A stretch of 38,839 nucleotides of DNA from a virus. This document shows positions 7,714 to 31,293 of the stretch, piece by piece (the first letter of the stretch is position 1; each line of letters begins with the position of its first letter). The stretch covers positions 1 to 38,839 of the IMG/VR virus record IMGVR_UViG_3300028146_000022; one strand, written 5' to 3'. The notes beneath the pieces were generated by a model that saw only the letters and a program-made list of their open reading frames with translations, was not told the origin of the DNA and made no database searches. The translations under genes were made by a program, and so were the position numbers.

Positions 7714-9404
7714 AAATACCATCAAACGAGGCGGAAAAGCAGGGGCTCGTTGAGTATGTCATCAGCTGCTGCATGGCCTCGAAAGAAGACCGCCAGACCA
7801 TGTATGACCGAAGGCGGCGGTATTTTCTCTACGGCCGCGATGAAGAGGTGAAGGTTAAGTTCAATCGGCTAAAGAGCCACATGAAGCTGGTGAGCAGCTT
7901 TCTTTTTTCTCCCGACGGGTTGGTTTATAATATCGCGCCGCCTAAAAATGCGGATGAACAAACGATTCAACAATTCCTTGCCCTACAGGATGACTGGAAC
8001 GAGGATGTGCATGATAGCGGCCTCTCGGATGTATTCGGTGACGCGGTGCTGTGGGGGCTAAATTTTGATACGATGATCATCAAGCAGGGGTGGAACGACA
8101 CGTCGGGGCAGGGATTCGCTAAGTTGCTGGAGCCCGGATGCTTCGGAGTGTGGCGCGAAGATGACCCAGATTTTTCCTCCCAAGCCGCGATGAATCACCG
8201 CTTCACCCTGGACTATGACGAAGCCTGCGCGAGGCTAAAGAAAGCTGGACGCGGCGATATGATATCTTCCCTGCAGGCAAATTCAGGGCCTCCGCAAGGT
8301 GGCGCGCTTCCGGCCGCCATGAGTAGCATCATCATCGCCTCGGTGACCGGCACTGGGATCAACGAAACCATCTCGGGAAACGTCAACCCGAATTATCAGG
8401 CGAACCCCACCTTCCGCGCGCAGATTGTCGCGCCGCAGATTACGTTTGATGAGACCTGGATATGGGATTCCGATAGCAACGACTGGCGCATATTCCATTC
8501 ACTGAACGGCGGAACGGTGTTGTTGGCGGACTCGGCGGAAACGATTGACGCCATAAATAAGGCCGCGAAAAATGAGGCTAAATATTCCAGTACGACGAAC
8601 TGGTTTTTAGAAAAAGAAAATCCCTTTACGCCCGTGACGCCCTTTACGCTCTACGATTATTTCTGGGGCGATGCTCACATGGAAGATATCATTCCGCTTC
8701 AGGATTGGTCCGAGGAGCGCTTAACGTGGATAGAGGAAATACTGCAGGCGCAAGTCGATCCGCTGCGCATAGGTCATAATATGACGGGCTTGACAGACGA
8801 AAAAATGGATCTGGACTACGGCTCTTTTTATAACGACGATAGCCCGAACGGAAAATTTGAAGAGCATCGTCCTCCCATGCCGGAAGATGTATTCCGTGAG
8901 TTTAATGAAATCGGCGGCCTCATGATGGAATCCAGTGGCCTGACAGAAGTTGTTTCCGGCAAGAGCAGCGGCGGCGCGCGCGGCGGCCAGCAGCAAAAAC
9001 AGATGCAGATTACCGGCGGCGGGCAGATTCGGAAAGTTGCGATTGGACTAGAGCATCCATTGGTGCGCATGGGCGAAATAGGACTTCGCCTAAAGATGAA
9101 AAACGATGACGAGAAAATCAAAATGCCAGACGGCACTGAATTTATTCCCGCGCAGGTGCCGGATGGGTATTCGCTTCGTGTTGATGGACACTCTCACTCG
9201 CCGCTATTCACCCTGGAAACTAGGGAGATCGCCGCCATGCTATTTAAGGCCCAGGCCATTGACCGTGAATGGCTCATCCGCATGAGCAATGTAACGCAAA
9301 AATCGAATTTACTTCATTCGCTGAAGGGCAGAGAGAAGGCGGAGGCCGAAGCCCACAAGCAAGAACAGGCCGCCGAAGCCATGAAACACGCGCATAAGAA
9401 ATGA
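7710..9404 (+). CDS. Portal protein
   Basis: The 564-residue protein directly follows the terminase region and has the layout of podovirus portals. The N-terminus is helical and polar (DRRRRYFLYGRDEE). A middle domain contains WIWDSDSNDWRIF and a long helix (WSEERLTWIEEILQAQVDPL). A Gly/Gln loop (GGARGGQQQKQMQITGGG, near residues 425-443) and a C-terminal coiled tail rich in Glu, Ala and Lys complete it. Portals form the dodecameric DNA channel at one capsid vertex and bind terminase and adaptor. Overlaps of 4 bp on both sides couple it to the zinc-ribbon gene and, unusually, to a WaaL/Wzy-like membrane protein. Confidence 0.8.
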   Translation: MKIPSNEAEKQGLVEYVISCCMASKEDRQTMYDRRRRYFLYGRDEEVKVKFNRLKSHMKLVSSFLFSPDGLVYNIAPPKNADEQTIQQFLALQDDWNEDVHDSGLSDVFGDAVLWGLNFDTMIIKQGWNDTSGQGFAKLLEPGCFGVWREDDPDFSSQAAMNHRFTLDYDEACARLKKAGRGDMISSLQANSGPPQGGALPAAMSSIIIASVTGTGINETISGNVNPNYQANPTFRAQIVAPQITFDETWIWDSDSNDWRIFHSLNGGTVLLADSAETIDAINKAAKNEAKYSSTTNWFLEKENPFTPVTPFTLYDYFWGDAHMEDIIPLQDWSEERLTWIEEILQAQVDPLRIGHNMTGLTDEKMDLDYGSFYNDDSPNGKFEEHRPPMPEDVFREFNEIGGLMMESSGLTEVVSGKSSGGARGGQQQKQMQITGGGQIRKVAIGLEHPLVRMGEIGLRLKMKNDDEKIKMPDGTEFIPAQVPDGYSLRVDGHSHSPLFTLETREIAAMLFKAQAIDREWLIRMSNVTQKSNLLHSLKGREKAEAEAHKQEQAAEAMKHAHKK

Positions 9405-10498
9405 TCGGTAGCCGCTGGTTAGCTCCCGGATTGCATGCAATCGCGCTCATCATTGCCTTTTTTGCCCAGTCATCCGGCTCACCGTTCGCGGGGGCCTGGA
9501 TTTTTTTTAATGCCGCCGGTTGCGCGGTCTTGCTTTATTCCAATGAGCCGACGCCTCGGCGCGGCGTATTATGGTGGGCCACGCTAGGCTGGCTTGTTGC
9601 CCTCACTGTCCATACTTTTCTTATACGGCCCGTGGTCAATGGCGGATCCAACACAGCGGTTCTTATGGCTGGCCCCATGCTGGCGCTTTGCATGAAAAAA
9701 GATACATTGCCGTATTACATAAAAGCTTTTCTGGGGGTTGCCTTCGCCTACATTTTGGGCATGTATCTGCAACTCGCTATGGATGTGGAATACGCCCCCT
9801 ATAACTACGTCATGTGGTATGGGCGCACCGCTCCCGTATGGCCGATTATAGATCCAAACAATGCCGCGTGCGTGCTTAATATCGCGCTTCCGGCTTTTCT
9901 CTACGCCGCGTTTTATAATTGGCGTTTAAGTTTTCTTCCCGCATTGACCGCAGGAGCTATTATTTTAACGGGCAGTCAGGCGGGATGCGTGACCGCCGCT
10001 CTTACTTCAACGGCGATGATTATTTATTATTTGCGGCCCAGCAAAGATCTGATTGGGTTGACGGCGTGCGCGATGATTGTGGCAGTGTGGCCTTTCCTAG
10101 AGCATTTCTCGCAAAAGTGGGGCCATTCCCTTGATGCGCGCTTGCCTATGTGGGAATCCAGTTTGCATCTTCTTAACATATCACCCTTGTTTGGCGTGGG
10201 CTCAGGGCAGTTTTCTGTGTATTATAAATTTGTCCGCACGGAATTTACCACTGGCGGATTTTTCGCGCATAATGATCTGTTGCAGTTTGCCATTGAATTC
10301 GGGATACCCGTGGCGCTGATATTCGTTTGTTTTTTCGCTACAGCTTTATGGAAATCACCAATGGTTGCGCGCTGCTGTTTCTTTGCCGCACTGCTGCAGT
10401 CCATGTCTGAATTCCAATTTTATGTTCCGGTCGTAGCCTTGGCTTCCGGCTTACCCATAGCTTATACGCTGTTTATGGAATCATCCGATAAGAAATAG
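9401..10498 (+). CDS. O-antigen ligase/polymerase (WaaL/Wzy_C superfamily) membrane protein, copy 1
   Basis: A 365-residue, very hydrophobic protein with about 9-10 membrane segments. The large periplasmic loop carries the family hallmark H-N-x9-G (AHNDLLQFAIEFG, H290) preceded by GVGSGQFSVYYKFVRTEF. A second signature, WPIIDPNNAACVLN, is at residues 148-161. WaaL attaches, and Wzy polymerises, undecaprenyl-linked glycans in the periplasm; phage D3 is known to encode a Wzy-type polymerase for serotype conversion. The start overlaps the portal stop (ATGA), so it is translated with virion genes. A divergent paralogue lies at 23763-24887. Ligase and polymerase cannot be told apart by sequence alone. 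Confidence 0.75.
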   Translation: MIGSRWLAPGLHAIALIIAFFAQSSGSPFAGAWIFFNAAGCAVLLYSNEPTPRRGVLWWATLGWLVALTVHTFLIRPVVNGGSNTAVLMAGPMLALCMKKDTLPYYIKAFLGVAFAYILGMYLQLAMDVEYAPYNYVMWYGRTAPVWPIIDPNNAACVLNIALPAFLYAAFYNWRLSFLPALTAGAIILTGSQAGCVTAALTSTAMIIYYLRPSKDLIGLTACAMIVAVWPFLEHFSQKWGHSLDARLPMWESSLHLLNISPLFGVGSGQFSVYYKFVRTEFTTGGFFAHNDLLQFAIEFGIPVALIFVCFFATALWKSPMVARCCFFAALLQSMSEFQFYVPVVALASGLPIAYTLFMESSDKK

Positions 10499-10545
10499 TT
10501 GCAAAACTCTCAACTTAATGGCAGAATGAACATTGCCTATGATGA

Positions 10546-10582
10546 GTCAGGTTAACTGACCAATAAACCCCCGGCTTATTGG
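10546..10582 (+). promoter_or_regulatory. Two tandem hairpins before the first basic micropeptide
   Basis: GTCAG/CTGAC (10546-10550, 10556-10560) with a 5-nt loop is followed by CCAATAA/TTATTGG (10560-10566, 10576-10582) with a 9-nt loop. They share base 10560, so they may be alternative structures. No T-run follows, so these are not classic terminators; RNA processing or stability is possible. Confidence 0.4.
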
Positions 10583-10613
10583 CGCTGGGAAAGGAAAGAA
10601 GGAGGGCATGAAT

Positions 10614-10658
10614 ATGAAACGTGGCAAAAAGTCGCACAAGCGGCGCAGCAAGCGCTAG
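10614..10658 (+). CDS. Highly basic 14-residue micropeptide
   Basis: AAGGAGG at 10599-10605 is 8 nt before ATG 10614, an almost ideal ribosome site; an ATG at 10608 is too close. The peptide is MKRGKKSHKRRSKR, with 9 Lys/Arg in 14 residues. It stands alone in the 280 bp between the WaaL/Wzy-like gene and a terminator. A similar 14-mer occurs at 22609-22653. Such a peptide could bind DNA or RNA, or be packaged like the small basic J protein of microviruses; that comparison is only by character. Confidence 0.55.
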   Translation: MKRGKKSHKRRSKR

Positions 10659-10696
10659 TTTAGCGAAGATTGAATCAGCTCGACATAGTTAGGTTC

Positions 10697-10741
10697 AAAA
10701 AACAAAAGGGGGCTGGCGTTTCGCGGCTCCTTTTTGTTTTT
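10697..10741. terminator. Strong intrinsic terminator, likely bidirectional
   Basis: An A-rich arm (AAAAACAAAAGGGGGC) pairs with GCTCCTTTTTGTTTTT across a loop of about 12 nt, with one T bulged. The T-run follows on the plus strand and A-run mirrors it. It ends the terminase-portal-ligase unit before the capsid unit. Confidence 0.75.
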
Positions 10742-10743
10742 GA

Positions 10744-10772
10744 TTGACGGTATGCTTTAGTTGCGATATTCT
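10744..10772 (+). promoter_or_regulatory. Promoter for the capsid unit
   Basis: TTGACG at 10744-10749 is 17 bp from TATTCT at 10767-10772. It lies immediately after the terminator and 8 bp before the next ATG at 10780, so the leader would be very short or absent. Confidence 0.5.
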
Positions 10773-10779
10773 CAATTTT

Positions 10780-11148
10780 ATGATGCAACCAGCCGCCGCA
10801 TTGCCGAACTCCCCCGCAGGGCCACCCCCAGGAATGGGTGCCTCTCCGATGGCGGCACCTGGTGCGGGTGCTGGTAATACGGCCGCAGCGGTCAACGCCC
10901 TGAAGGGCATGTTCCCCCTGATGTATAAGCTTCTCTCAGCGTTCTCTCCTGGCAGCGAAGATTGGAAAAACGCCTCTGATGGCATCCGCTCATTCGGCAA
11001 GATCGTCGGCAAAGAGCCCGATGATTCCGCCGTCCCCGCCGCCATCCGACAAATGGCCCTTGCAGGCAAAGGCAGCCCCATGCGCGCCGCGCCGCCGATT
11101 GGAATACAGCCCAACGTCAAACCACCAGAGGAACCGGAACCGGTTTAA
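10780..11148 (+). CDS. Pro/Ala/Gly-rich head-module protein (122 aa)
   Basis: The double ATG at 10780/10783 is preferred to an in-frame ATG at 10744 that lies in the promoter. The first 45 residues are Pro/Ala/Gly-rich (PNSPAGPPPGMGASPMAAPG), followed by a helical part (MFPLMYKLLSAFSPGSEDWK) and a Pro-rich tail. It precedes the scaffold candidate. A minor head or scaffold-associated role is likely from position only. No Shine-Dalgarno is visible, fitting a leaderless transcript. Confidence 0.55.
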   Translation: MMQPAAALPNSPAGPPPGMGASPMAAPGAGAGNTAAAVNALKGMFPLMYKLLSAFSPGSEDWKNASDGIRSFGKIVGKEPDDSAVPAAIRQMALAGKGSPMRAAPPIGIQPNVKPPEEPEPV

Positions 11149-11157
11149 GGAGATTTT

Positions 11158-11364
11158 ATGGCAAAAGATGATTTATTCAGACCCAAAGTGGCAACCCCCG
11201 GATTGGATAGTATTTCCAGTGACCGCCGGGGCATGTTCGTTAACCCTCCTGGCTATGCGCAGATGGGTGGATTCACCAGCGCCAGCAAGCTGGAGCGCGG
11301 CAAAAAGAATTTGATGGGCCTTGAAAAGGGTGGCCCCAAAGCAAAGCAAGGTAAGCCCATATGA
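11158..11364 (+). CDS. Small head-module protein (68 aa)
   Basis: AAGGAG precedes the ATG by 5 nt. The basic, glycine-rich product (MAKDDLFRPKVATPGLDSIS...) has no hydrophobic core segments and looks extended. It overlaps the scaffold gene by 4 bp, so it belongs to the head operon. No family is recognised. Confidence 0.6.
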   Translation: MAKDDLFRPKVATPGLDSISSDRRGMFVNPPGYAQMGGFTSASKLERGKKNLMGLEKGGPKAKQGKPI

Positions 11365-15353: not shown

Positions 15354-17155
15354 TGTCCGCAGGTTCAGAGTTTTCAAATAAAAAACTCATTCCATTTACT
15401 GAATTCCAGGGAATGACGACGCAAGTGTTACGCCAGGATTGCCCGCAGAAAAAAGCCGCCTGGATGGAGAATTTGCAACCAATAGGTGCAAATAACGTCA
15501 GATGTACCCCCGCCGCCACTGCGGCAATAGCTTCACTTGCCAGCCAGGGCGAAACCATCACCAAGCAATTTTATTTTGATTTCGGCCTTTCTACTGACTA
15601 TATCGCGTGCTTTTGTTTGTCCGGTGCGGCCTACACGGTAGCGAATCCATCCGGTGCCATAGTTAAATTCGCCAATGCTGGCACGTTCAGTGCAACCCCA
15701 GATGTCACCAACTGGTCATTGCAGAGAATGCTGATTGCTGATTCGGTCGCGGGGTATTGCACGTATGATACTGTGGCCTTTGTTAAGCTGGGCGGCGTAT
15801 CTCCCAACATTACCGTCACGGCTGGTGGGTCGGGCTATTCATCCGGCGCCACTGCCGCGTCATCTGGCGGCTCGGGCTCCGGCGATACTTATTCCGTAAC
15901 CGTTGTGGGTGGTGTCGTCACAGCGATAACCTTGCTCACGCCCGGGACCGGTTTCTTGCCGACAGACACTCTAACGCTTACCATAACCCCCGTCAGTGGT
16001 GGAACCGGCGCAACCGCTATCGCGCATGTTTGGCCGAGCGTATCTCCCAATCCGACAACGCTTGCAATATTCCAGGGGCGGGTGTTTCTCGCTCAGAAAA
16101 ATGTTCTCACCTATACTGGAACCGGCGCTTCCTATGGTGGCGTAGGGTACGATGACTTTAAAACAGGCGATGCGGCCGGAACATCAACCATTCAGGATAC
16201 AGACTTGGCGCATCAAATCACGGGCCTTAGAACCTTCAACAACTATCTTTTCATTTTTGGCGATGCGTCGGTTAAGCAGATCGGCAATTTATCGGTTGCA
16301 AGCAGCGTGACAAATTTCACCATCACCACACTTTCATCGGACCAAGGCACCATTTACCGGGATAGCATAGTATCGTACAATCGCCTGGTGCTTTTTGCCA
16401 ACACAACTGGCGTTTTCGCGGTGTTTGGCTCATCGGTGGAAAAGATTTCCAGCGATATGGACGGCATATTTAGCGCTACCGATTTTACGCAAGCGCCCTC
16501 TGCCGCCGTTGCAGATATAAATAACATTCATACCTTTCTTTTGTTGGTGAGGTACAAAGATCCCCTAAACGGCACCCGTTCGCTTATGCTCGCCTTTGCG
16601 GAAAAGAAATGGTATGCGATTTCGCAAAGTAATTCATTGGCCTTTATCGTGAACGGCATCACAAACAGTGTGTTCAAGGCGTATGGCACTTCTGGCGCTG
16701 ATATAATTCCCTTGCTCGCGGACCCCATGACGGCGGTTTCGATAACCCTACAGACCTCTCTCACGTCTAACGGCGAGCCCATGATAGGAAAATCATCGGT
16801 GCAATTTGCTGTGGCGCAGTCGGTTGGTAATTCTAGCGTTATCAATCTTCTGGTTCAGTCGGAAAATCCGCAAAGCGCCAGCATTAATTATAACATTTCC
16901 AATGTGTTGAATTTTGTTAATAACTCTCAGGGCGCGCTACAGTTCATCAATTCCGGTGGCGGAAACTTAAATTTTATCACGAATGCCGCTGGATTTTTCT
17001 ATCGTCATGGTAATACGGGGGGGGTTGCGGGAGTATATTTGGGCGCAACCTTGACTGGAAATGTCATTAATTTTACATTGAATGCAATATTGCTGGAATA
17101 TGAAGAAACCTCCGCCTTTGGCACAGACCAGGTGGCTTATGCTGCAACACTATGA
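15353..17155 (+). CDS. Tail hub/stabilisation-like protein (600 aa), beta-rich
   Basis: A long beta-rich protein whose start (LIPFTEFQGMTTQVLRQDCP) and repeated strand-turn pattern resemble the packaged-DNA stabilisation and tail proteins of podoviruses (P22 gp10-like in place and size). Residues about 152-223 are a GxGY beta module (VTAGGSGYSSGAT and PGTGFLPTDTLTLTIT), matching those of the two upstream genes. After it the fold resumes with IFQGRVFLAQKN. The C-terminal 100 residues are Asn/Ser-rich. The exact tail role is uncertain. Confidence 0.6.
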   Translation: MSAGSEFSNKKLIPFTEFQGMTTQVLRQDCPQKKAAWMENLQPIGANNVRCTPAATAAIASLASQGETITKQFYFDFGLSTDYIACFCLSGAAYTVANPSGAIVKFANAGTFSATPDVTNWSLQRMLIADSVAGYCTYDTVAFVKLGGVSPNITVTAGGSGYSSGATAASSGGSGSGDTYSVTVVGGVVTAITLLTPGTGFLPTDTLTLTITPVSGGTGATAIAHVWPSVSPNPTTLAIFQGRVFLAQKNVLTYTGTGASYGGVGYDDFKTGDAAGTSTIQDTDLAHQITGLRTFNNYLFIFGDASVKQIGNLSVASSVTNFTITTLSSDQGTIYRDSIVSYNRLVLFANTTGVFAVFGSSVEKISSDMDGIFSATDFTQAPSAAVADINNIHTFLLLVRYKDPLNGTRSLMLAFAEKKWYAISQSNSLAFIVNGITNSVFKAYGTSGADIIPLLADPMTAVSITLQTSLTSNGEPMIGKSSVQFAVAQSVGNSSVINLLVQSENPQSASINYNISNVLNFVNNSQGALQFINSGGGNLNFITNAAGFFYRHGNTGGVAGVYLGATLTGNVINFTLNAILLEYEETSAFGTDQVAYAATL

Positions 17156-17550: not shown

Positions 17551-17760
17551 ATGAGAAAATCATTGATTTTATTGGTTCTATTCCTGGCTGGATGCAGCAC
17601 GCCGGTTACTACACTGGAAAATGACGAGGGGGATGTTGTCACGTGCGGTGGCGGCACGGCGGGATCGTTGATGGGTGGCCTAATCGGTTACACCATACAA
17701 GAGGGCCATGACCACGATTGCGTAGCTTCGTATAAATCGCAGGGCTATAGCGTGAAATGA
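17551..17760 (+). CDS. Small outer-membrane-type lipoprotein (69 aa), probable moron
   Basis: The signal MRKSLILLVLFLAGCSTPV has a perfect lipobox (LAGC, C15), so signal peptidase II processing would leave about 55 residues. The mature part has an acidic stretch, a glycine-zipper-like run (GGGTAGSLMGGLIGYTIQ) and two further cysteines. It has its own promoter and ribosome site in the middle of the virion operon. Phage lipoproteins of this size are known to block receptors or DNA injection in lysogens (superinfection exclusion, for example Cor or Llp types); that function is inferred. Confidence 0.7.
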   Translation: MRKSLILLVLFLAGCSTPVTTLENDEGDVVTCGGGTAGSLMGGLIGYTIQEGHDHDCVASYKSQGYSVK

Positions 17761-18227
17761 TAGAATATTTAACCCATGAAACCTTAGAGGAAGCCCTAGA
17801 TTTTGCAGAAAAGTCTCATGGAGATTCCGCATGGAAAGACTTTCCATTTAAGCGCGATATTTTGCGGGTAAATCTCCAAAAAATGATAGGTAATGAGCAA
17901 TTTTTCACCTGCATGTACCGAAAAGATGGCGTCCTGGTGGGATATTTCTTTGCCAGACTCGGATATTTCCTGTTTTCGGATCGTTTGCTGGGGTTAGAAA
18001 ATGGGATTTATATCACCCCAGAACATCGTGGCGGGCGCATAGGGTATCGCATGTTCCATGCCTATCTTGAATGGTGCAGGCGGCAGCTTTCAGAGCCACT
18101 GATAGATGTTTATTTTGGTGAGGACAAAGACAACGAAAAAACCTATAGTTTCCTTCGTAAGCTCGGTATGATAGAATGCGGCAGAAGCTTCAGAGGAGGA
18201 AATCATGGGCTGCGGGAAAGCGATTGA
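17757..18227 (+). CDS. GNAT-family N-acetyltransferase
   Basis: The 156-residue protein fits the GNAT fold: the acetyl-CoA loop is HRGGRIG (R/Q-x-x-G-x-G/A, in ITPEHRGGRIGYRMFHAYLE), preceded by the strand LENGIYI and followed by a DVYFGEDKDNEKTYSFLRKLG segment, in which the F-L-R-K-L-G ending is typical of motif B. GNATs transfer acetyl groups to amines on proteins, small molecules or sugars. It overlaps the lipoprotein stop by 4 bp and shares its promoter, then overlaps the next ejection gene by 23 bp. Whether it modifies a virion protein, host surface glycan or toxin is unknown. Confidence 0.75.
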   Translation: MIEYLTHETLEEALDFAEKSHGDSAWKDFPFKRDILRVNLQKMIGNEQFFTCMYRKDGVLVGYFFARLGYFLFSDRLLGLENGIYITPEHRGGRIGYRMFHAYLEWCRRQLSEPLIDVYFGEDKDNEKTYSFLRKLGMIECGRSFRGGNHGLRESD

Positions 18228-22716: not shown

Positions 22717-23115
22717 ATGCGTTTACGCCACCTAATTGGACATTCTATAGCAATTTTCGTAGTATTTTCAGCGAATTTAGCTTTTGCCCAAACCGCCCCC
22801 ACGTTCGCAGATTGCTCCATTGCTTCAATGTCTGGAAGCTCGCAGAGTCTAGGCACATCCTTCACGCTCGGAAGCAAAGCGTATAATCGAAAATACCTGC
22901 ATATTTGCAACACTGGGTCCGCCGGAAATAACGTCGGCGTAAATTTAACCGGTGGAACGGCCGCACTTTCTGGCTCTGGTACTGAAACCTTAGTCCCCGG
23001 CGCGTGTCTTGAATTTTCCGCAGCCCCTGGCTCAGGCCTACCGCTGCCACCGTCAAACGCAATAAACGTGATAGGAACATCTAGCCAGCCCGTACTTTGC
23101 GAAGAAGGGAGATAG
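22717..23115 (+). CDS. Secreted fibre-cluster protein with Sec signal peptide (132 aa)
   Basis: Start chosen at ATG 22717, 4 nt after CGGAGG. The first residues (MRLRHLIGHSIAIFVVFSAN then LAFA-QT) form a clear signal peptide with basic n-region, hydrophobic h-region and AFA cleavage site. The mature part is beta-rich, Gly/Ser/Thr-rich with three cysteines, and resembles a small fibre-tip or base domain. It opens the fibre cluster. Signal peptides are not expected for virion proteins, which fold in the cytoplasm. Confidence 0.65.
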   Translation: MRLRHLIGHSIAIFVVFSANLAFAQTAPTFADCSIASMSGSSQSLGTSFTLGSKAYNRKYLHICNTGSAGNNVGVNLTGGTAALSGSGTETLVPGACLEFSAAPGSGLPLPPSNAINVIGTSSQPVLCEEGR

Positions 23116-23118
23116 ACC

Positions 23119-23763
23119 ATGCATTTTAAAAAATGGCTAGCGCTTAGTATAGCGCTGCTTCTGCCATTGCAGGCTTTAGCTGGCCCAGGCGCAGGACAAT
23201 ACGCAAACCCGCAGCCGCCATATATTAACATCACAGCGCCCAATCAGCTTGATGGCGTAAATATTAATCCGAATACATCTGCTGCCGGGAACTTTACTAC
23301 ATTATCGGCTAGTGGTGTATTTTCTCCCAACGGAGGTACGGCCACCCAGGGAACGGTTTTTAGCACCGTATTATCCGGCAATCCGCTGTCTTTTTTAAAC
23401 TTTCAGACTATTCCGGTTGCATCCGTCAATAGCGGAGCGGGCCAATTATTGCTTTCTGGCGTTGTTAATAGAACAATATTTGTTAACGGTGTGACCGCGC
23501 TAGTGAGCGGCACTGCATCCGGCGCTACTGCTGTCACCTTTCTATGCCAGCCGAGCGGCCGCACCATCGGCACTTTCCCTGTTGCGCAGCTTGTCACAAG
23601 CGTGCCGGTTAGCCTTTACTCTTCTGCGGGCGCAAACACTATAGCTGGTGCCGCAGCGGGGACTGGATGCGCCTCTGGTGATAGTGTCTATATATCGCAC
23701 ACGGGCAGCAACCTTGCGACTACCACCCAGGTTTACCCGACGCTTCTGTACACCATACAGTAA
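23119..23763 (+). CDS. Secreted fibre-like protein with Sec signal peptide (214 aa)
   Basis: The signal peptide (MHFKKWLALSIALLLPLQAL, then A-GP) ends at an ALA site. The mature part has segments typical of phage tail-fibre shafts, such as NTSAAGNFTTLSASGVFSPN (the A-A-x-x-F-T-x-L-S/N-A/T-x-G motif found in many trimeric fibres), and a C-terminal Gly/Thr-rich region with two cysteines. It ends 1 bp into the second WaaL/Wzy gene. The combination of a fibre shaft motif and export signal is unusual. Confidence 0.7.
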   Translation: MHFKKWLALSIALLLPLQALAGPGAGQYANPQPPYINITAPNQLDGVNINPNTSAAGNFTTLSASGVFSPNGGTATQGTVFSTVLSGNPLSFLNFQTIPVASVNSGAGQLLLSGVVNRTIFVNGVTALVSGTASGATAVTFLCQPSGRTIGTFPVAQLVTSVPVSLYSSAGANTIAGAAAGTGCASGDSVYISHTGSNLATTTQVYPTLLYTIQ

Positions 23764-24887
23764 TGCTCCCGGCCATTCTTTTGTCTAGCGCGGCGTTTGC
23801 CGCTCTATTCGTGCAGCTTTCAACTAGTTGGCTTGCTGGCGCGTGGCTCCCCCTCATGCTTTTTGGCTGCGTATCTGCGTATAACCCGAAAAACAACGGT
23901 GGGTTAATGTGGTGGGCGTCTTTGGCGTGGCTTTTATCCATAGTAGGGTCGGTATTTTTTATAAACCCGGTAATGCAGGGGGCTTACACCATGTGGGTTC
24001 TCTCCGCGCTTCCCATCGTTGCGCTTTCTCTGCCCGCTGAAAATATCAAGCCATGCATGATGGGTGTGCTGGGTGTTTTGGTGGTGTTTGCGCTCGGTCT
24101 TATTGCCCAAATGCTTATCCATGTACAGCCAAGTCTATATGGCACGCTGGTTCATGTATCTTACCGGTCAGGATATGCTTATGCGTGGCCTATGATTGAT
24201 CCTAACAACGCCGCCTGTGTGCTTAATTTTGGGCTTATATCGTGTTTTTGGCTGGGGCTGAAAGACAAAAGATGGTTTGCGGTTGTTGCCATATTCGCCT
24301 TTGCGCATATTTCCTGCGCAAGCAAGGCTGGGGCGCTTGCGGCAATTATTAGCTGCTCAGTATTATTAATAGAAAGATACCGTTTGATTGGAACATTGGC
24401 TGTTTTGCTATGTTTGGCGGCATGTATAGAGTTGTTATTTTGTCCAATAGAATGGATAACCCAGTATTTAGGAGAGCGCCCTGAGATGTGGGCCGCTTGT
24501 TTGCAGATGATAAAAATGCACCCCTGGGTTGGGTTTGGTGCGGGGTCATTCCCATTTTATTATTCTCAATTCCGAACAGAGCATATCAACGGCGGGTTTT
24601 ACGCGCACAATGACATACTTCAATTTGCGGTTGAGCTAGGGGTGCCTGTGTCGATTGTTTTTATATTGCTGGCTGCGATGGTAGCTATATGCACCAGGCG
24701 CGCCAATATTGTCTCTGGGGCTGTTTTCCTATGCACCTTTATTCAATCTATGGTGGAATTCCAATTTTATGTTCCGGTTATTAGTATATTGGCCGGTCTA
24801 ACGCTGGCCTATCATCGGTTGACTTATTGCGGTAATCGCAACATAATGTCATTAGGAGAAAACCATGAGCATACCGTCAAATTTTAG
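23763..24887 (+). CDS. O-antigen ligase/polymerase (WaaL/Wzy_C superfamily) membrane protein, copy 2
   Basis: A 374-residue multi-pass protein, paralogous to 9401-10498. The shared signatures are YAWPMIDPNNAACVLNF (D146), GFGAGSFPFYYSQFRTEH, AHNDILQFAVELGVPV (H282, the H-N-x9-G hallmark) and the near-identical C-terminal EFQFYVPV. Elsewhere the two differ widely, so they are old paralogues or came from different donors. It overlaps the fibre gene upstream (TAATG) and the following gene by 23 bp, so it is part of the fibre cluster. Likely role: periplasmic transfer or polymerisation of lipid-linked glycan, changing the host surface. Confidence 0.75.
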   Translation: MLPAILLSSAAFAALFVQLSTSWLAGAWLPLMLFGCVSAYNPKNNGGLMWWASLAWLLSIVGSVFFINPVMQGAYTMWVLSALPIVALSLPAENIKPCMMGVLGVLVVFALGLIAQMLIHVQPSLYGTLVHVSYRSGYAYAWPMIDPNNAACVLNFGLISCFWLGLKDKRWFAVVAIFAFAHISCASKAGALAAIISCSVLLIERYRLIGTLAVLLCLAACIELLFCPIEWITQYLGERPEMWAACLQMIKMHPWVGFGAGSFPFYYSQFRTEHINGGFYAHNDILQFAVELGVPVSIVFILLAAMVAICTRRANIVSGAVFLCTFIQSMVEFQFYVPVISILAGLTLAYHRLTYCGNRNIMSLGENHEHTVKF

Positions 24888-25209
24888 GGTAGTTGAGCAG
24901 CAAATATTGAACTGCGCTACGGGCGGCACAGCGGTTACTGCGCAATTTACCGTAGCTCCCCCCAAGGGTATAGGGGCAGATCAGTGCTTTGTTTGGAATG
25001 ATGGGGCCAATAGCGCGCAGATCATCACCGGACCTAATACAACGGCGGCAACTCCGGTTGTGGATGCCAGCGCCGCTGGGACTGGGCAGCTTAAGCTTGG
25101 CAGTAAAGTTGGTGTGCTGCTTATGCTCAATGGAGATACTTATATCGGCGCGGTTACGGAGTCGGCCACTACAACGAAAATCTACGCACATAGGGGTAGC
25201 GGGCAATGA
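24865..25209 (+). CDS. Small beta-rich fibre-cluster protein (114 aa)
   Basis: ATG at 24865 lies after TTAGGAG. The protein (MSIPSNFRVVEQQILNCATG) has no signal peptide and is rich in Thr, Ala, Gly and Val, with alternating polar and hydrophobic residues like a compact beta domain. The overlap with the WaaL/Wzy-like gene is 23 bp and with the next gene 4 bp. It could be a virion surface or fibre-adaptor protein. No family is recognised. Confidence 0.6.
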   Translation: MSIPSNFRVVEQQILNCATGGTAVTAQFTVAPPKGIGADQCFVWNDGANSAQIITGPNTTAATPVVDASAAGTGQLKLGSKVGVLLMLNGDTYIGAVTESATTTKIYAHRGSGQ

Positions 25210-25778
25210 TAACGCATAGTTCTGATATTAGGACTCCCGAAATCAATGAATTGAAGCACCTGGAGCTTTTGTCAAATGCGGCGAAGGCTCATCAGTATTT
25301 TGCTCAAAACCCCAAAGAAATTGATGTAATGGCCTCTAAAATAGTGGGGGCCTACAAACTGACCGAATCAGAAAGAAAAGAGCGTGACGACGCTATCCAG
25401 GCTGCGAGAGATGCCGATAAAATAGCTAAGGATGCTCAGTCTGCGCTAAAGTCTGCCACCGAAGAGGCTGGGCAGGTAAGAAAGGATGCGGATATTTACG
25501 CCAAGGGCGTTAAATCAGAGGCGGACCAATATAAACGCACTGCTTTCGCGGAAATTAAAAACGAGCAAGCGTTGCTTGAAGAAAAATCCAAGAATTTATC
25601 CGAAAAAGAATCCATCCTTTTGGAAGAAAAAAACAAGATCAACGAATTCCAGAAGCAGATTAAATTGGATTTGCAAAAGATTGCTGATTGGAAAAAAGAA
25701 AAAGAAGAGTGGGAGCAGGACTATCAGCACCGCCTTGCCGCGCTTAATGACAGGATGAGCCGAGCGGTCAGGGGGTAG
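25206..25778 (+). CDS. Coiled-coil protein (190 aa)
   Basis: From residue 50 to the end the protein is one long charged helix with heptad-like spacing (ERKERDDAIQAARDADKIAK, KSKNLSEKESILLEEKNKIN, DWKKEKEEWEQDYQHRLAAL). It is very likely a parallel or antiparallel coiled coil, 110-140 residues. The 4-bp overlap with the preceding gene and place before the large fibre suggest a fibre linker or assembly factor. Confidence 0.65.
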   Translation: MITHSSDIRTPEINELKHLELLSNAAKAHQYFAQNPKEIDVMASKIVGAYKLTESERKERDDAIQAARDADKIAKDAQSALKSATEEAGQVRKDADIYAKGVKSEADQYKRTAFAEIKNEQALLEEKSKNLSEKESILLEEKNKINEFQKQIKLDLQKIADWKKEKEEWEQDYQHRLAALNDRMSRAVRG

Positions 25779-25781
25779 TGC

Positions 25782-25937
25782 GTGGGCATTTCCTCTGCCA
25801 TATTAAATTACAAACACACAGTGGTTGTTGCGGCTGGTAGTTCTTCACCGTTCCCGCCTGATTCTTATGTGACCGAAGATGAGTCCGAGGTCTATGTGAC
25901 CGAAGATGGCTCGGAGGCATATGTACCGGAAAGCTAA
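25782..25937 (+). CDS. Small repeat protein with YVTED(G/E)SE units (51 aa)
   Basis: GTG at 25782 follows AGGGGG. The C-terminal half contains three short direct repeats: [18 protein letters not shown] and AYVPES. Each looks like one beta strand plus an acidic turn, a pattern seen in small phage fibre-associated proteins. It overlaps the large fibre gene by 32 bp in another frame. It is shorter than most gene predictions would report. Confidence 0.5.
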
Positions 25938-28900
25938 ATATCTCTTCCCGTGCTTGATTGTATTGGTATTTGCGTGCGCGGCGTATGCGCAGACGAAACT
26001 CAGCCAGATAACATCCGGTGGGGCCATAAACACTTCAACCGATACTGCGGTAGCCGTCCGCAGCGGCACACTGGATCGCCTGGTTAGTTTCGGCACAGCT
26101 GCGGGGCAGAATACGGGCACTTCAGGCGCAACCATACCGCTGTTGAACGGCACAAATACGTGGAGCGCTCCGCAGACATTTTCCAGCACCCCGGTATTTA
26201 GCACTATGACCGCTGGAAGCAACTTATTTGCTGGGACTAGTGGAACGCTTAGCCAGAACAATGCTAATTGGTTTTGGGACAACACCAATAAACGTTTGGG
26301 AATCGGCACAAACACGCCTGGATCGGGCTTGATTTACGGTGCTCTACAAACGGCCTTTCATAATTTTAGTTCCAGCTTAGCTATCACAGCAACGCAGAGT
26401 ACGGTGGGTTCGGCGCTTACCTATACCGAAGGATCCAGCAATGCCATTATTGCAGTAGCGGATAATGCAGCGACGACGAATTTTAGAATTTTAGATATTC
26501 TCTCCTCCGGGGGGATAATGAGTTTCCGCCGGATTAGGGATGATTACGGCGCGGCGCTGGCTACCGGACTTAGCATCGATTATAATAATTCCGGACGGAT
26601 TAATATTCCTAATTTGCCAGCCTCGGAAGCTGTATTCACCGACGGTTCAAGCAATTTGGTAGGCAACACCATTAGCGGCACCGGCTCGGTGTGCATGACC
26701 AATTCATGCGCAATGGTGACGCCAGCGCTGGGGACTCCGGCAAGTGGCGTGTTGACCAATGCGACTGGCTTGCCACTTACCACGGGTGTTACAGGGAATT
26801 TGCCCGTGACTAATTTGAACTCCGGTACAAGCGCTAGCAGCAGTACGTTTTGGCGCGGGGATGGCACATGGTCAACGCCTGCAGGCGGCGGCACAGTGAC
26901 TAGCGTGACGTTCACCGGCGACGGAACGGTGCTTTCCAGCACGCCCAGCGCCGCTGTACTTACGTCGGGCACTCTAACAGCTACGCTCGCTACGCAGACC
27001 GCCAATACTGTGTTGGGGGCTTTGACGGCCACTACCCCCTCTGACCTCGCGGTGCCGTCCTGTAGCACGTCCGGTAGCGCTTTAAAATGGACGAGCGGTA
27101 CGGGGTTCGGTTGCAACACCACTATTGCCGCTTCTACGGTGTCGACGATCAGCGGGCTTATATCCGCCAGCACCAACATAACCATTACTGGCGGAGGTAC
27201 GCAGGCGAGCCCTTATGTTATTGCTGCTGCGGGCGGGTCTAGCGGCGGCGGTGTGACATCGTTTACCGGCGATGGGGTTATTATAAGCAATTCCGGGTCC
27301 ACCGGGGCGGTGACGGATACACTAGTAGCTGCTGCGGCGAAAACGCTACTGGGCAACCCTCTGAACTCCGCTGCAGCGCCGGTTTATACCAGCGCGCCGT
27401 ATGTGAGCGGGGTTGTCACTGCTAGTGCATATAATGCCTTCACTGCTGGAACCGGCTCTGGGTATTTGGTGAATGGAATAAACGGTCTTTCGTACCCGTC
27501 GCAAGATAGCACGGCAAATGCCACGGTGGCTATTGGTTCGAGCACTCTAGCATTGTTAAGCACGGCTTCTGCAGCATATCATAATACTGGGGTGGGCTAT
27601 CAAGTTCTTGCCAGCAATATGAGTACAGCAGCATTGAATAATACCGCCGTAGGATATAAAGCCGGAAATAACGTAACTACGGGACCTAGCAATACTTTAA
27701 TTGGAGCAAATGCTGGTGCATCAGCTTCAACAGATCAAGGAAATACTGCTGTAGGGGCTTCTGCTTTGACTGCCACAGCCGCTGGATTTTTTGCAGAAAA
27801 TACCGCTGTGGGATATCAAGCCGGTACTAGCATTACTACGGGGTCAGGCAACGTTTTATTTGGGGCCAATACTGGGGGGGTTCTTGCAACTGGGAGTAAT
27901 AATATACTTATAGGCGGAAGTGGCCTATCCGGTTCGGCAACGGTGGCAACTTCAACGACTGGTGCGGGAATTGGTATAGGGGTAGCCACAAAACCTGGAT
28001 CGGATGACGTAGCCATAGGAACCGACGCGATGCAGCATACGACAACTAATAGCAATTTAAATACCGCCGTAGGCGCATTTGCCATGGCAGCGATCACCAG
28101 CGGACCTAACAATACAGCTGTAGGCGAAAACGCTTTAGCTGGGGCTCAGGCTGACGGCAACAATGTAGCTATAGGGCTTAATGCGTTAGGGGTGCAGAAT
28201 GGCGCTGGGGCTACTGCGGGGAATGTGGGAGTAGGATTTAATGCAGGGGATAAAATTACTACAGGGGCTAATAACACTGTGATAGGCGGCTCTGTAGGAA
28301 GTTTAACGCTTGTGTCAGGAGCGAGTAATATATTAATCGGCGTTAGTTCTGCTATAGATACCGCAGCTTCAAATACTAGCAACAGCATTCGCATAGGTGG
28401 TACAGGTGGGGCTTGGGTAGATGTGACAGGTTCTAACACGGTTTCTACGGCTAGCACTAAAGCGCGTGGCATATGGAATATGCCGGATCTCGCGTCTTCT
28501 TCTTCTGCTACCACCGGAACAGTTTGCTGGACCACTGCGACTGGGTTGCTTAATGTGGATACAACCGTTGCTTGCCTAGCATCGCTAGAAGAAATGAAAG
28601 ACAAGCATGGAGATATTGATAATGCGTTGGACTTAGTGGAGAAAATAAAACCATTCTGGTTTACTTGGAAAAAAGATACCCCGGAATATCCCGGCGATAA
28701 GCATGAACAGCCCGGCATGGGCGCGCATCAGGTTGAAAGCGTTGATACTCGGCTAGTGGCTTATACGCCAGACGGAAAGCTAAAAGGCGTACGTTATCAG
28801 GAAATGACGGCGGTGCTGGTAAAAGCTATCCAGGAGCAGCAGAAAGAAATTGAGAAATTAAAACGTGATCCTGTACTAGTGGCTGAAAGCGTGCCGTATC

Positions 28901-28938
28901 ATAAATGTTTTTTTGGGTTGCTGATGTGCGCGGATTAA
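25906..28938 (+). CDS. Large exported tail-fibre/adhesin with YadA-head-like repeats and S74 chaperone domain
   Basis: The protein starts at ATG 25906 (1010 aa) or ATG 25921, which has GGAGG only 3 nt away. Residues 1-29 are a signal peptide ([20 protein letters not shown]). Residues 30-550 are Thr/Ser/Gly-rich shaft with fibre motifs such as [10 protein letters not shown] and [11 protein letters not shown]. Residues about 555-820 hold many N-x-A-V/I-G units ([19 protein letters not shown]), the left-handed beta-roll pattern of YadA-type adhesin heads. Residues 893-990 form an S74 intramolecular chaperone with the Ser893-x4-Lys898 dyad, then a coiled coil ([17 protein letters not shown]). S74 domains fold trimeric fibres and then cleave themselves. 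No outer-membrane anchor is visible. Likely receptor-binding fibre, exported or with a cryptic signal. Confidence 0.8.
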
Positions 28939-28942
28939 TAAT

Positions 28943-29023
28943 ATGCCAGGTATTGCGGTATTAGCCTTAGTGTTTGTGTCAGCGGCCATTCTTTTGGCCC
29001 TATTTATGCCACGGTATTTATGA
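28943..29023 (+). CDS. Single-span membrane micropeptide (26 aa)
   Basis: The frame MPGIAVLALVFVSAAILLAL ends FMPRYL and is one hydrophobic helix. No convincing ribosome site precedes it. Its place between two fibre genes and its hydrophobicity suggest a real micropeptide, but it could be chance. Confidence 0.3.
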   Translation: MPGIAVLALVFVSAAILLALFMPRYL

Positions 29024-29072
29024 GAAAAAATTAAAGTTGAGAGAAACGCGGGTTTTATGATAAAGTTTCCCC

Positions 29073-29909
29073 ATGTTTAAGCGATTAGGGATACTGCTGG
29101 CCTCTATAGCGATGCTCTCATGTGTAGCCGCACCGCTTGCTTATGCAGTGTTGCCGAATATCTTCGCTACGCAGCCCGCTGGGAATGTTGCCGCATCACT
29201 ATTGGACACCAATTTTACCTTCCTCGAATCCCAGGGCGTCCAAGCGCTAACCACCACGGGCTCATCTAATGCTTATGTTGCAACTCCTGCTGACGCTTGG
29301 GTAACTGGATATTCAAGCTATGTCGGCCGCGCGCTCACGGTAAAGCCAAGCTTCACCAACACCGGCGCGTCAACAGTTAACGTTTCCGGGCTCGGTGCAG
29401 CATCGCTTTACAAAAATGTTTCCGGCGTACAGACGGCTCTTTCTTCTGGGGATATAGTTTCTGGCACTCCCGCTATTTTGATATGCGACGGCACGGCCTT
29501 TCTCCTGGCAAACCCCACGTCAAGTACATTTTCTCCGTCCCAAATAACAAACTCCATCAGCGGCAATGTCTCCCTTAACAATGTAAGCAATTTTTTTGAT
29601 GGGCCTTCTATTGCGCAAGGGTCAACTGGGGTATGGTTTGTATCCGGCACCGTAACTCTCTATGACACGGTTGGTATTGGAACATTTGACGCGAAATTAT
29701 GGGACGGGACCACTATCATAGATAGCAGCCGAGTTATTAGCTCGGGAGCAAATGCCACCATCACCATTGCGCTTTCCGGCTATCTCTCCGCGCCTGCAGG
29801 AAACCTCCGTATATCCGCGAGAGACTCAAACAGCACCAGTGGCGTGATGGCGAATAGCGTTAGCGGATTAGGGAAAGATTCAACCATTACTGCATTTAGG
29901 ATTCAGTGA
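29073..29909 (+). CDS. Secreted fibre-like protein with Sec signal peptide (278 aa)
   Basis: The first 25 residues (MFKRLGILLASIAMLSCVAA, then PLAYA-VLP) form a signal peptide. The mature N-terminus (NIFATQPAGNVAASLLDTNF) and the following GSSNAYVATPADAWVTGYSS region occur in many short tail-fibre proteins; the C-terminal half is a beta-sandwich-like domain (SGTVTLYDTVGIGTFDAKLW). A weak promoter (TTGAGA at 29037, TAAAGT at 29061) may lie upstream. It ends 1 bp before the holin-like gene. Confidence 0.7.
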   Translation: MFKRLGILLASIAMLSCVAAPLAYAVLPNIFATQPAGNVAASLLDTNFTFLESQGVQALTTTGSSNAYVATPADAWVTGYSSYVGRALTVKPSFTNTGASTVNVSGLGAASLYKNVSGVQTALSSGDIVSGTPAILICDGTAFLLANPTSSTFSPSQITNSISGNVSLNNVSNFFDGPSIAQGSTGVWFVSGTVTLYDTVGIGTFDAKLWDGTTIIDSSRVISSGANATITIALSGYLSAPAGNLRISARDSNSTSGVMANSVSGLGKDSTITAFRIQ

Positions 29910-29910
29910 T

Positions 29911-30165
29911 ATGGCCGAGCTTGATCTACTCACGGAAATTCATACAGATGTGAAATACATCAAGGAAACGCTCGCCGATCATATAGAGGATGATAAACAA
30001 AATAGGGATGAGGCGAAGCGGGTTAATGAAAAATTTCTGTTGCCACTTTGGGAGGCTCACCAGCAACAAAAGGGGGCGGCGAAAATGGCGGCTATCTCTT
30101 ACAGCTTAATAGGAGGGATAACAGCGTGGGCCTTTAGTTATTTTACAGGGATTAACCACAAATGA
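29911..30165 (+). CDS. Putative holin or hemolysin XhlA-like protein (84 aa)
   Basis: Residues 1-55 form a charged coiled coil (LTEIHTDVKYIKETLADHIE) and residues 60-80 a single membrane span (AISYSLIGGITAWAFSYFTG). This layout, charged helix then C-terminal span, matches XhlA-type and class III holin-like proteins. The 4-bp overlap with the endolysin supports a role in lysis. The endolysin has no export signal, so a holin is needed. Confidence 0.65.
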   Translation: MAELDLLTEIHTDVKYIKETLADHIEDDKQNRDEAKRVNEKFLLPLWEAHQQQKGAAKMAAISYSLIGGITAWAFSYFTGINHK

Positions 30166-30605
30166 TCGATGACACCCTCAGTAATCTGATTAAGCAGTTT
30201 GAGGGTTTCCGCGTGCTGGTTTATGACGATGCTAATGGAGCGCTTATTGCCAAAGGTAGCGCGGTAGAGGGAAACCCGACAATAGGGTGGGGGCGCTGCC
30301 TATCTACTCACGGCATTACAGTGCAAGAAGCGGAAATGATGCTCGAAAATGACATTGCAGACTGCGGAGACTTGGTTATCCAGGCCCTTCCCTGGGTGGC
30401 AAGGCTCTCTGAAGCCAGACAGAATGTGTTTATCTGTATGGCCTTCCAGATGGGAATAGTGGGCTTGCTAGAATTCAAGATTATGCTGGCGGCCGCCCAA
30501 CAAGGGAAGTTTGACCAGGCTGGAGCGGCGATGCTTCAGTCAAAGTGGGCTGACGAAACCCCTAACCGGGCAAAAATTCTTGCTAATATGATGATAGAAG
30601 GGTAG
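30162..30605 (+). CDS. GH24 (T4-type) lysozyme, endolysin
   Basis: The 147-residue protein has the family pattern: catalytic E14 (QFEGFRVLVYDDANG), D23 nine residues later, and PTIGWG with T40. The loop between D23 and T40 is longer than in T4 lysozyme, as in several phage GH24 enzymes. It cleaves the beta-1,4 bond of peptidoglycan. There is no signal peptide or signal-anchor segment, so access to the wall depends on the upstream holin-like gene. The C-terminus follows the usual helical lobe. Confidence 0.85.
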   Translation: MIDDTLSNLIKQFEGFRVLVYDDANGALIAKGSAVEGNPTIGWGRCLSTHGITVQEAEMMLENDIADCGDLVIQALPWVARLSEARQNVFICMAFQMGIVGLLEFKIMLAAAQQGKFDQAGAAMLQSKWADETPNRAKILANMMIEG

Positions 30606-30631: not shown

Positions 30632-31009
30632 ATGAGTTTTTTATCTGATATCTGGGGCCGTATTAAGGCTGCAGTCGAAGGCGAAGCCACCACAGTAGAA
30701 GCCACTCTGAGCGAATTGGAGCAAAAACTGCTTCCTGGCTTCGGCGCGCTGGTAAAGCAAATTGAAAACACCATTGGTGCGCAGGGGCTGACCATTCTGG
30801 AGCAGGGGTTAGCGGATATCGCTACCGTCATCGAATCAGGCGGTAATGTTGGAGCGGCAATAGCCGCGCTGGTGCCACAGGTTACTTCGCAGGTAACCGC
30901 AGACCTTAAGCAGGATGCAACCAACGCCGCTCACGGTGCCGTATCGCTTCTTATCGCGGGTCTACCGGCTCCAACCACTGCAACTCCCGCAGCGGAACCG
31001 ACGGCGTGA
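30632..31009 (+). CDS. Helical Ala/Gln-rich protein in the lysis region (125 aa)
   Basis: AAGGGGGG precedes the ATG. MSFLSDIWGRIKAAVEGEAT begins an amphipathic helical protein with a hydrophobic stretch (VGAAIAALVPQVTSQVTA) and a Pro/Ala/Thr tail. It lies between the lysozyme and the spanin-like pair. It could be an antiholin, pinholin or structural protein; nothing decides. No family is recognised. Confidence 0.55.
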   Translation: MSFLSDIWGRIKAAVEGEATTVEATLSELEQKLLPGFGALVKQIENTIGAQGLTILEQGLADIATVIESGGNVGAAIAALVPQVTSQVTADLKQDATNAAHGAVSLLIAGLPAPTTATPAAEPTA

Positions 31010-31013
31010 CCTT

Positions 31014-31169
31014 ATGTGGGCTTTCTGGGCCGCAGTGCTTTACAGAATTGCGGATTATTTCTGGGAAAAGCACGAACGCAAAACGCCGAATAATGCAGCG
31101 AATAGCGTTGATGCTATGCCCGATGATACTGTTAAGCGCGTGCTCGAGCGTGACTGGACCAAGCACTGA
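31014..31169 (+). CDS. Short N-terminally anchored protein, possible i-spanin-like partner (51 aa)
   Basis: MWAFWAAVLYRIADYFWEKHERK shows an N-terminal hydrophobic/aromatic segment followed by a charged tail. A lipoprotein gene starts inside it in another frame at 31093, the embedded arrangement typical of Rz/Rz1 spanins. It is much shorter than usual inner-membrane spanins, so the assignment is weak. Confidence 0.4.
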   Translation: MWAFWAAVLYRIADYFWEKHERKTPNNAANSVDAMPDDTVKRVLERDWTKH

Positions 31170-31293
31170 TTTTTGCGAGTACGCTCACCCCATTTATCTG
31201 GATAGGCAGGATATTTTGACACTCGATACGCAAAGAGAGGTTCTTAAGTTGAACCAGACTGGAGCCTCTCTTTGCGGCTGGGATAAAGTTTAA
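31093..31293 (+). CDS. o-spanin (Rz1-like) lipoprotein (66 aa)
   Basis: The signal MQRIALMLCPMILLSACSSV has a lipobox (LSAC, C17), giving a mature lipoprotein of about 50 residues. The mature pattern C...F-C-E...P-I-x-L...D-I-L-T-L-D-T...L-N-x-x-x-x-x-L-C is that of phage Rz1-like outer-membrane spanin subunits. It is embedded in the 31014-31169 gene in the +1 frame. It would fuse inner and outer membranes in the last step of lysis. The 3' end holds a 12-bp inverted repeat. Confidence 0.65.
   Translation: MQRIALMLCPMILLSACSSVTGPSTDFCEYAHPIYLDRQDILTLDTQREVLKLNQTGASLCGWDKV
31229..31276. repeat. Perfect 12-bp inverted repeat at the end of the o-spanin gene
   Basis: CGCAAAGAGAGG (31229-31240) is the exact reverse complement of CCTCTCTTTGCG (31265-31276), with a 24-nt loop. 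No T-run follows, so a classic intrinsic terminator is unlikely in the plus direction. It ends the late transcript, where it may protect the 3' end or be an RNase III site. Confidence 0.6.

Follow-up and report, generated by a model that had tools for sequence, protein, structure and literature searches.

The usual view is that tail fibers are produced and joined to the particle in the cytoplasm of the host. Fiber-like proteins that carry an export signal are known from Bdellovibrio, whose mosaic adhesive trimer (MAT) fibers have a signal peptide and S74- or TNF-like ends and are displayed on the cell surface; a conserved ~130-amino-acid (aa) β-rich domain directly after the signal peptide is a feature of the superfamily (PMC10769870). 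The genes in question belong to a predatory bacterium, which puts the fibers to its own use. Among isolated tailed phages, two proteins resemble the ones described here: gp19 of the Burkholderia phage BcepC6B (YP_024939.1, tail fiber protein; 9791-10864 of locus L186) and gp35 of the Xanthomonas phage PBR31 (putative structural protein; 3566-4375 of locus L224). Each has a signal peptide, a cysteine (Cys)-pair motif like that of SP3 and a C-terminal D5 domain, and their genes stand between spike or fiber genes and lysis genes. We analyzed IMG/VR record IMGVR_UViG_3300028146_000022 in its entirety (38,839 bases, here called the window), which carries four fiber-type genes with predicted Sec signal peptides, SP1 to SP4 (Table 1).

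The window encodes terminase, portal, major capsid and SU10-type adaptor proteins, an endolysin and a tyrosine integrase, and its source is therefore a temperate tailed phage, uncultured. SP1 to SP4 are placed in the late structural region, with virion genes on one side and lysis genes on the other. A DNA-level search of the phage collection with the window returned no relative; the closest relative found is contig IMGVR_UViG_3300006116_000075, with portal and major capsid proteins 56% and 63% identical. Gene calls were home-made, and the metagenome contigs are fragmentary. What was computed here comprises the signals, the fact that they recur in the closest relative as well as in unrelated phages, the co-occurrence of Cys pairs, and the fiber modules behind the cleavage site.

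Export signals in the window and in other phages

Protein starts were scored for n-, h- and c-regions and the -3/-1 rule with a home-made scorer (not SignalP), which accepted 25 of 25 known Escherichia coli signal peptides at scores of 12.1 to 18.7. All four window proteins have the basic n-region, hydrophobic h-region and A-x-A site of a Sec/signal peptidase I substrate, with scores of 15.4 to 18.65 and an A-x-A at every predicted cleavage site, which bears out what an earlier note had read from the sequence. That note's gene positions hold for three of the four reading frames (22717, 23119 and 29073), all four of which are present; for the remaining one it gave 25906, whereas GGAGG precedes an ATG at 25921, where SP3 translation probably starts, and a signal peptide results from either start. 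A score of 15 was reached in 21 of 8000 trials with shuffled N-termini of the same proteins, and such starts are found in 7.7% of 2001 called genes in the fetched loci, fibers and lipoproteins counted in. The other starts flagged in the window belong to lipoproteins (17551 and 31006), membrane proteins (9401, Wzy, and 22326) and one weak minus-strand open reading frame (11176-11352; TTG start, score 12.3), and the secreted-type signals are thus located in the fiber locus. At their cleavage sites, SP1 to SP4 all lack a lipobox (L-[ASTVI]-[GAS]-C), the nearest approach being VFAC in SP3.

In the closest relative, four consecutive signal-peptide genes lie downstream of counterparts of the window genes at 20736 and 22326, a position taken by SP1 and SP2 in the window. 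The first of them is an SP1 ortholog (39% identity, E=2e-19) whose signal peptide is little like that of SP1 in sequence, yet of the same type. The ortholog retains the C33-C128 pair of SP1 (in DCSI and C.EGR, one residue near either end of the mature part), while C64 and C97 are both absent, a joint loss that a disulfide would predict. A fifth signal-peptide gene elsewhere in the relative encodes a 507-aa spike (15486-17009 of locus L014) with the SP4 N-terminal motif; at that place the window has a small lipoprotein-type gene (LAGC; 17551-17760). Bradyrhizobium phage ppBjS10J-1 has a similar gene order and similar fiber modules, but its two fibers at the position of the fiber locus lack signals. 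Database searches found nothing for the SP1 ortholog in phages, nothing for SP4 in the phage collection and nothing for SP1 and SP2 in viral_contigs. BLASTP of SP1 against a small PfAn1 protein and against the window protein at 24865 gave nothing useful, and a match of the SP1 pair to PfAn1/ct76p945 proteins was set aside at a profile-comparison probability of only 22%.

The signals recur well beyond this group. With the Cys-pair module of SP3 as alignment query (A2), a search of viral contigs yielded 80 loci, in which 73 proteins scored as signal-bearing, 4 did not and 3 were cut off; among the 4, L182 (MMLNKVVLQTMAWILLSTTFCCAQT) has a signal by eye and L176 is 5'-truncated. Of the roughly 77 proteins that carry this motif and are intact, 73 accordingly have a signal peptide. 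BcepC6B gp19 and PBR31 gp35 are the members from isolated phages, and Paraburkholderia prophages also carry such fibers. BcepC6B and PBR31 each have one signal-bearing fiber beside a signal-less one (gp18/gp19 and gp34/gp35), whereas the window has four. The signal is not mentioned in the records of gp19 and gp35 or in the PBR31 genome section consulted, in which gp35 does not appear at all, and the literature searched, with subscription journals mostly outside its scope, contained no mention of tailed-phage fibers with export signals; the export signal on these two proteins has apparently gone unremarked so far. The signal is also present in most of 30 Burkholderiaceae genomes with the D5 fiber domain (hits in 30 of 398 genomes in a family-level search and in 2 of 398 in a phylum-wide one). 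The contrast with cytoplasmic fibers drawn in the earlier note is supported by the same domains in other phages, where they are found without signal peptides; KP34-group tail fibers, for example, share the C-terminal D5 domain but lack a signal peptide, and the KP34 fiber has been seen as a virion band (PMC4411677). Two further analyses were not used, a check for adjoining endolysin genes that relied on a handful of seeds (8 of 53, too insensitive) and a structure of the BcepC6B gp19-like family (low confidence, with a mean predicted local distance difference test score of 53). Runs of signal-bearing spike-like genes were also seen in three other viral contigs (L020, L108 and L112), with 12 to 21 Cys in the mature parts of L108 and L112.

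Fiber modules and cysteines of the mature parts

The earlier note took the mature parts of all four proteins for tail-fiber or adhesin domains. This agrees with the searches for SP3 (phrog_4636 and a weak S74 match) and SP4 (phrog_4900 tail protein, E=3e-5, and a C1q/TNF fold), for which we regard a tail-type assignment by sequence and model comparison with moderate confidence; for SP1 and SP2 the family search found no tail-type match, and "fiber-type" describes their place and character only. The C-terminal model of SP4 matches C1q/TNF folds that include the Bdellovibrio MAT domain (8okw) and the BC2L-C lectin, as well as fiber-like proteins of uncultured phages. The head repeats of SP3 resemble, by eye, those of YadA-like trimeric autotransporters, but a Pfam scan of SP3 found no YadA-type membrane anchor or other anchor family. 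The SDxxxK motif of S74, which defines the S74 branch of MAT proteins, reads SLEEMK in SP3, which makes self-cleavage at its S74-like end doubtful. A C-terminal Cys pair (KCFFGLLMC) of SP3 comes after a coiled coil.

The sequences directly behind the predicted cleavage sites are those of ordinary fibers. In a Paraburkholderia prophage the predicted mature fiber begins QFTPGQVLTAAQLNAAL, and a neighboring spike without a signal opens on the same motif, NFQPGQVLTHNGLNSAF. The mature start LPNIF/VPYIF..GNV.AS.LD..F is common to SP4 and two relatives, and the signal-less fiber L003 has LPNTLVNGTLADAVPVMADLNF. Because mature starts and signal-less proteins share these fiber-type motifs, it seems that ordinary fibers acquired the signal at their front.

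Cysteine counts, all of them inflated by shared descent, follow the signal. Cys residues stand at both of two fixed strand positions of D4 in 14 of 17 signal-bearing versus 2 of 46 signal-less non-redundant homologs (Fisher p=2e-9; L062, one of the 17, was put into the signal-bearing set by eye); these positions lie in strands 179-185 and 220-226 of the SP4 model. On the D4 tree a minimum of 6 changes in the signal label is required, and the signal was thus gained or lost several times. Two or more Cys occur in 20 of 41 signal-bearing D5 proteins versus 0 of 9 signal-less ones (among these L204, whose start is probably damaged), with the pair at strand positions that differ between proteins. 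Among complete signal-bearing fibers, 60 have an even and 11 an odd number of Cys in the mature part, or 52 and 11 without the two-Cys proteins, the A2 query motif itself bringing two; in signal-less D4 fibers the number is even (above zero) in 11, odd in 24 and zero in 13. Cys density, at 0.98 per 100 aa in the mature signal-bearing proteins and 0.88 in the other proteins of the window, does not differ and was not used as evidence. The co-occurrence points to a disulfide-stabilized exported class in which paired Cys come and go with the signal, SP4 being an exception.

Probable export of the fibers and its possible outcomes

Export of the SP-type fibers into an oxidizing compartment is very probable, since the signals hold up, are seen again in relatives and are accompanied by paired Cys. 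We give about an even chance to the fuller reading that tail fibers are made as Sec preproteins, oxidized in the periplasm and docked to virions at lysis. Late in infection, the fiber preproteins would pass SecYEG and be cut at A-x-A by the host signal peptidase I; the fibers would fold and form disulfides in the periplasm, and the neighboring lysis genes would open the cell, so that periplasmic fibers meet finished virions and dock via the same N-terminal modules as ordinary fibers. Export, cleavage, disulfides and virion docking are what we infer here from sequence comparison. Loading onto virions at lysis is the favored candidate fate because virion-type N-terminal modules start at the predicted cleavage sites and because family searches recognized no other, signal-less long fiber in the window.

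Several observations weigh against this route. The branches of the D4 tree are weakly supported, and phylogenetically independent pairs are too few for a strict test of the Cys association. SP4 lacks the Cys pair in its D4 domain and has a single Cys in its mature part, and within the window Cys parity alone is not telling (4, 2, 8 and 1 in SP1 to SP4). The fiber with the signal adjoins a signal-less fiber or spike in BcepC6B, in PBR31 and in the Paraburkholderia prophage, and it may therefore be an accessory or non-virion protein.

An exported fiber could instead be set free in the periplasm or medium and act as a receptor-binding protein that masks or saturates receptors on debris and neighboring cells or blocks superinfection. 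Such a non-virion role would suit fibers that are often additional to a signal-less one (BcepC6B gp18/gp19, PBR31 gp34/gp35), that end in adhesin-type domains and that belong to temperate phages with surface-altering genes nearby, but a free blocker would have no need of the fiber-type N-terminal modules that are retained, the window has no other recognized long fiber, and no way of crossing the outer membrane ahead of lysis is apparent; we consider it rather unlikely. Display as an adhesin by the lysogen or infected cell, in the way that Bdellovibrio shows its MAT fibers, is suggested by the combination of signal peptide, fiber repeats, S74/TNF-like ends and surface display in MAT proteins (PMC10769870) and by the match of the SP4 model to the MAT domain and TNF/C1q folds. 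This seems to us unlikely, given genes that, in the manner of late genes, are flanked by virion genes and the lysis cassette, and a Pfam scan without any anchor domain.

The remaining explanations concern the signals themselves. Virion proteins with hydrophobic ends exist, and VFAC near the SP3 cleavage site could be seen as a poor lipobox, so the hydrophobic N-termini might be uncleaved segments for tail attachment or membrane insertion. A-x-A in 4 of 4 proteins speaks against this, as do segments that diverge in sequence and keep their type, ordinary fiber modules that begin right after them, and paired Cys that go with them, and we judge such segments improbable. That the starts are chance occurrences or mis-called is hardly credible: the scorer is not SignalP and SP4 has no clear Shine-Dalgarno sequence, but shuffled N-termini seldom reach such scores, and recurrence in unrelated phages, across dozens of proteins, and at the same locus of the closest relative already contradicts it.

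Docking at lysis, if it applies to these fibers, may extend further, and we rate it slightly short of an even chance that many Gram-negative tailed phages use such an extracytoplasmic route, with export by Sec, periplasmic oxidation and joining of virions only at lysis. If true, this would be a separate, overlooked last step of tail assembly. Widespread exported, Cys-paired fibers would mean either that the particle is partly finished outside the cytoplasm or that fiber-like adhesins are released for other use, and either outcome changes the prediction of receptor-binding proteins, their expression (in oxidizing compartments) and the search for them in virion proteomes. The phages isolated so far allow a direct test of this question.

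Neighboring genes of the fiber locus

The fiber locus also contains a gene of the Wzy_C (O-antigen ligase) type (23763-24887), which the earlier note had seen as fitting an envelope-directed cassette. Comparison did not support that view, as a 34% identical paralog lies in the head module (9401-10498) and the fiber locus of the closest relative, as far as sequenced, has no Wzy-like gene; surface conversion of the ordinary kind by a temperate phage would explain the gene.

Table 1. Features of the fiber locus and of the matching genes in the closest relative (window positions unless stated)
Feature	Position	Strand	Description
SP1	22717..23115	+	132-aa small β-type protein; signal peptide, then 108-aa mature part with 4 Cys
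SP1 signal peptide (predicted)	22717..22788	+	MRLRHLIGHSIAIFVVFSANLAFA/QT; cleavage LAFA/QT; score 15.4
SP2	23119..23763	+	Fiber-like, 214 aa; 2 Cys in mature part
SP2 signal peptide (predicted)	23119..23181	+	MHFKKWLALSIALLLPLQALA/GP; cleavage LALA/GP; score 15.75
114-aa protein in fiber locus	24865..25209	+	No signal peptide
190-aa coiled-coil-like protein in fiber locus	25206..25778	+	No signal peptide
SP3	25921..28938	+	Main fiber, 1005 aa; 8 Cys in mature part, several closely paired
SP3 signal peptide (predicted)	25921..25989	+	Cleavage AAYA/QT; score 18.65
SP3 Cys-pair module	26881..27135	+	Homologous proteins nearly all with signal peptide
SP3 YadA-head-like repeats	27796..28095	+	Phage tail-spike family phrog_4636, E=2.7e-16
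SP3 S74-like intramolecular chaperone region	28597..28758	+	PF13884, E=7.7e-4; 20.1 bits, below the Pfam cut-off of 22
SP4	29073..29909	+	Fiber, 278 aa; N-terminal fiber-type module (LPNIF..LDTNF) immediately after signal peptide
SP4 signal peptide (predicted)	29073..29147	+	MFKRLGILLASIAMLSCVAAPLAYA/VL; cleavage LAYA/VL; score 16.3
SP4 D4 domain	29529..29906	+	β-sandwich, C1q/TNF type; common to fibers with and without signal peptides
Endolysin (Phage_lysozyme)	30162..30605	+	PF00959, E=3.6e-8; first lysis gene, adjoins fiber locus
Signal-peptide genes of closest relative (locus L023)	1301-1648, 600-1298, 221-589	minus	Fourth gene cut by contig end

A tiny reading frame (29057-29080, ATGATAAAGTTTCCCCATGTTTAA) overlaps the start of SP4, whose own Shine-Dalgarno sequence is not clear; translation of SP4 is possibly coupled to this frame. 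A GNAT acetyltransferase gene (17757-18227) lies within the virion module, and ppBjS10J-1 and PfAn1 have similarly placed acetyltransferases. Downstream of the endolysin, a lipobox (LLSAC) protein at 31006-31293 overlaps the frame at 30915-31169, and the two probably form a spanin pair (Rz1-like).

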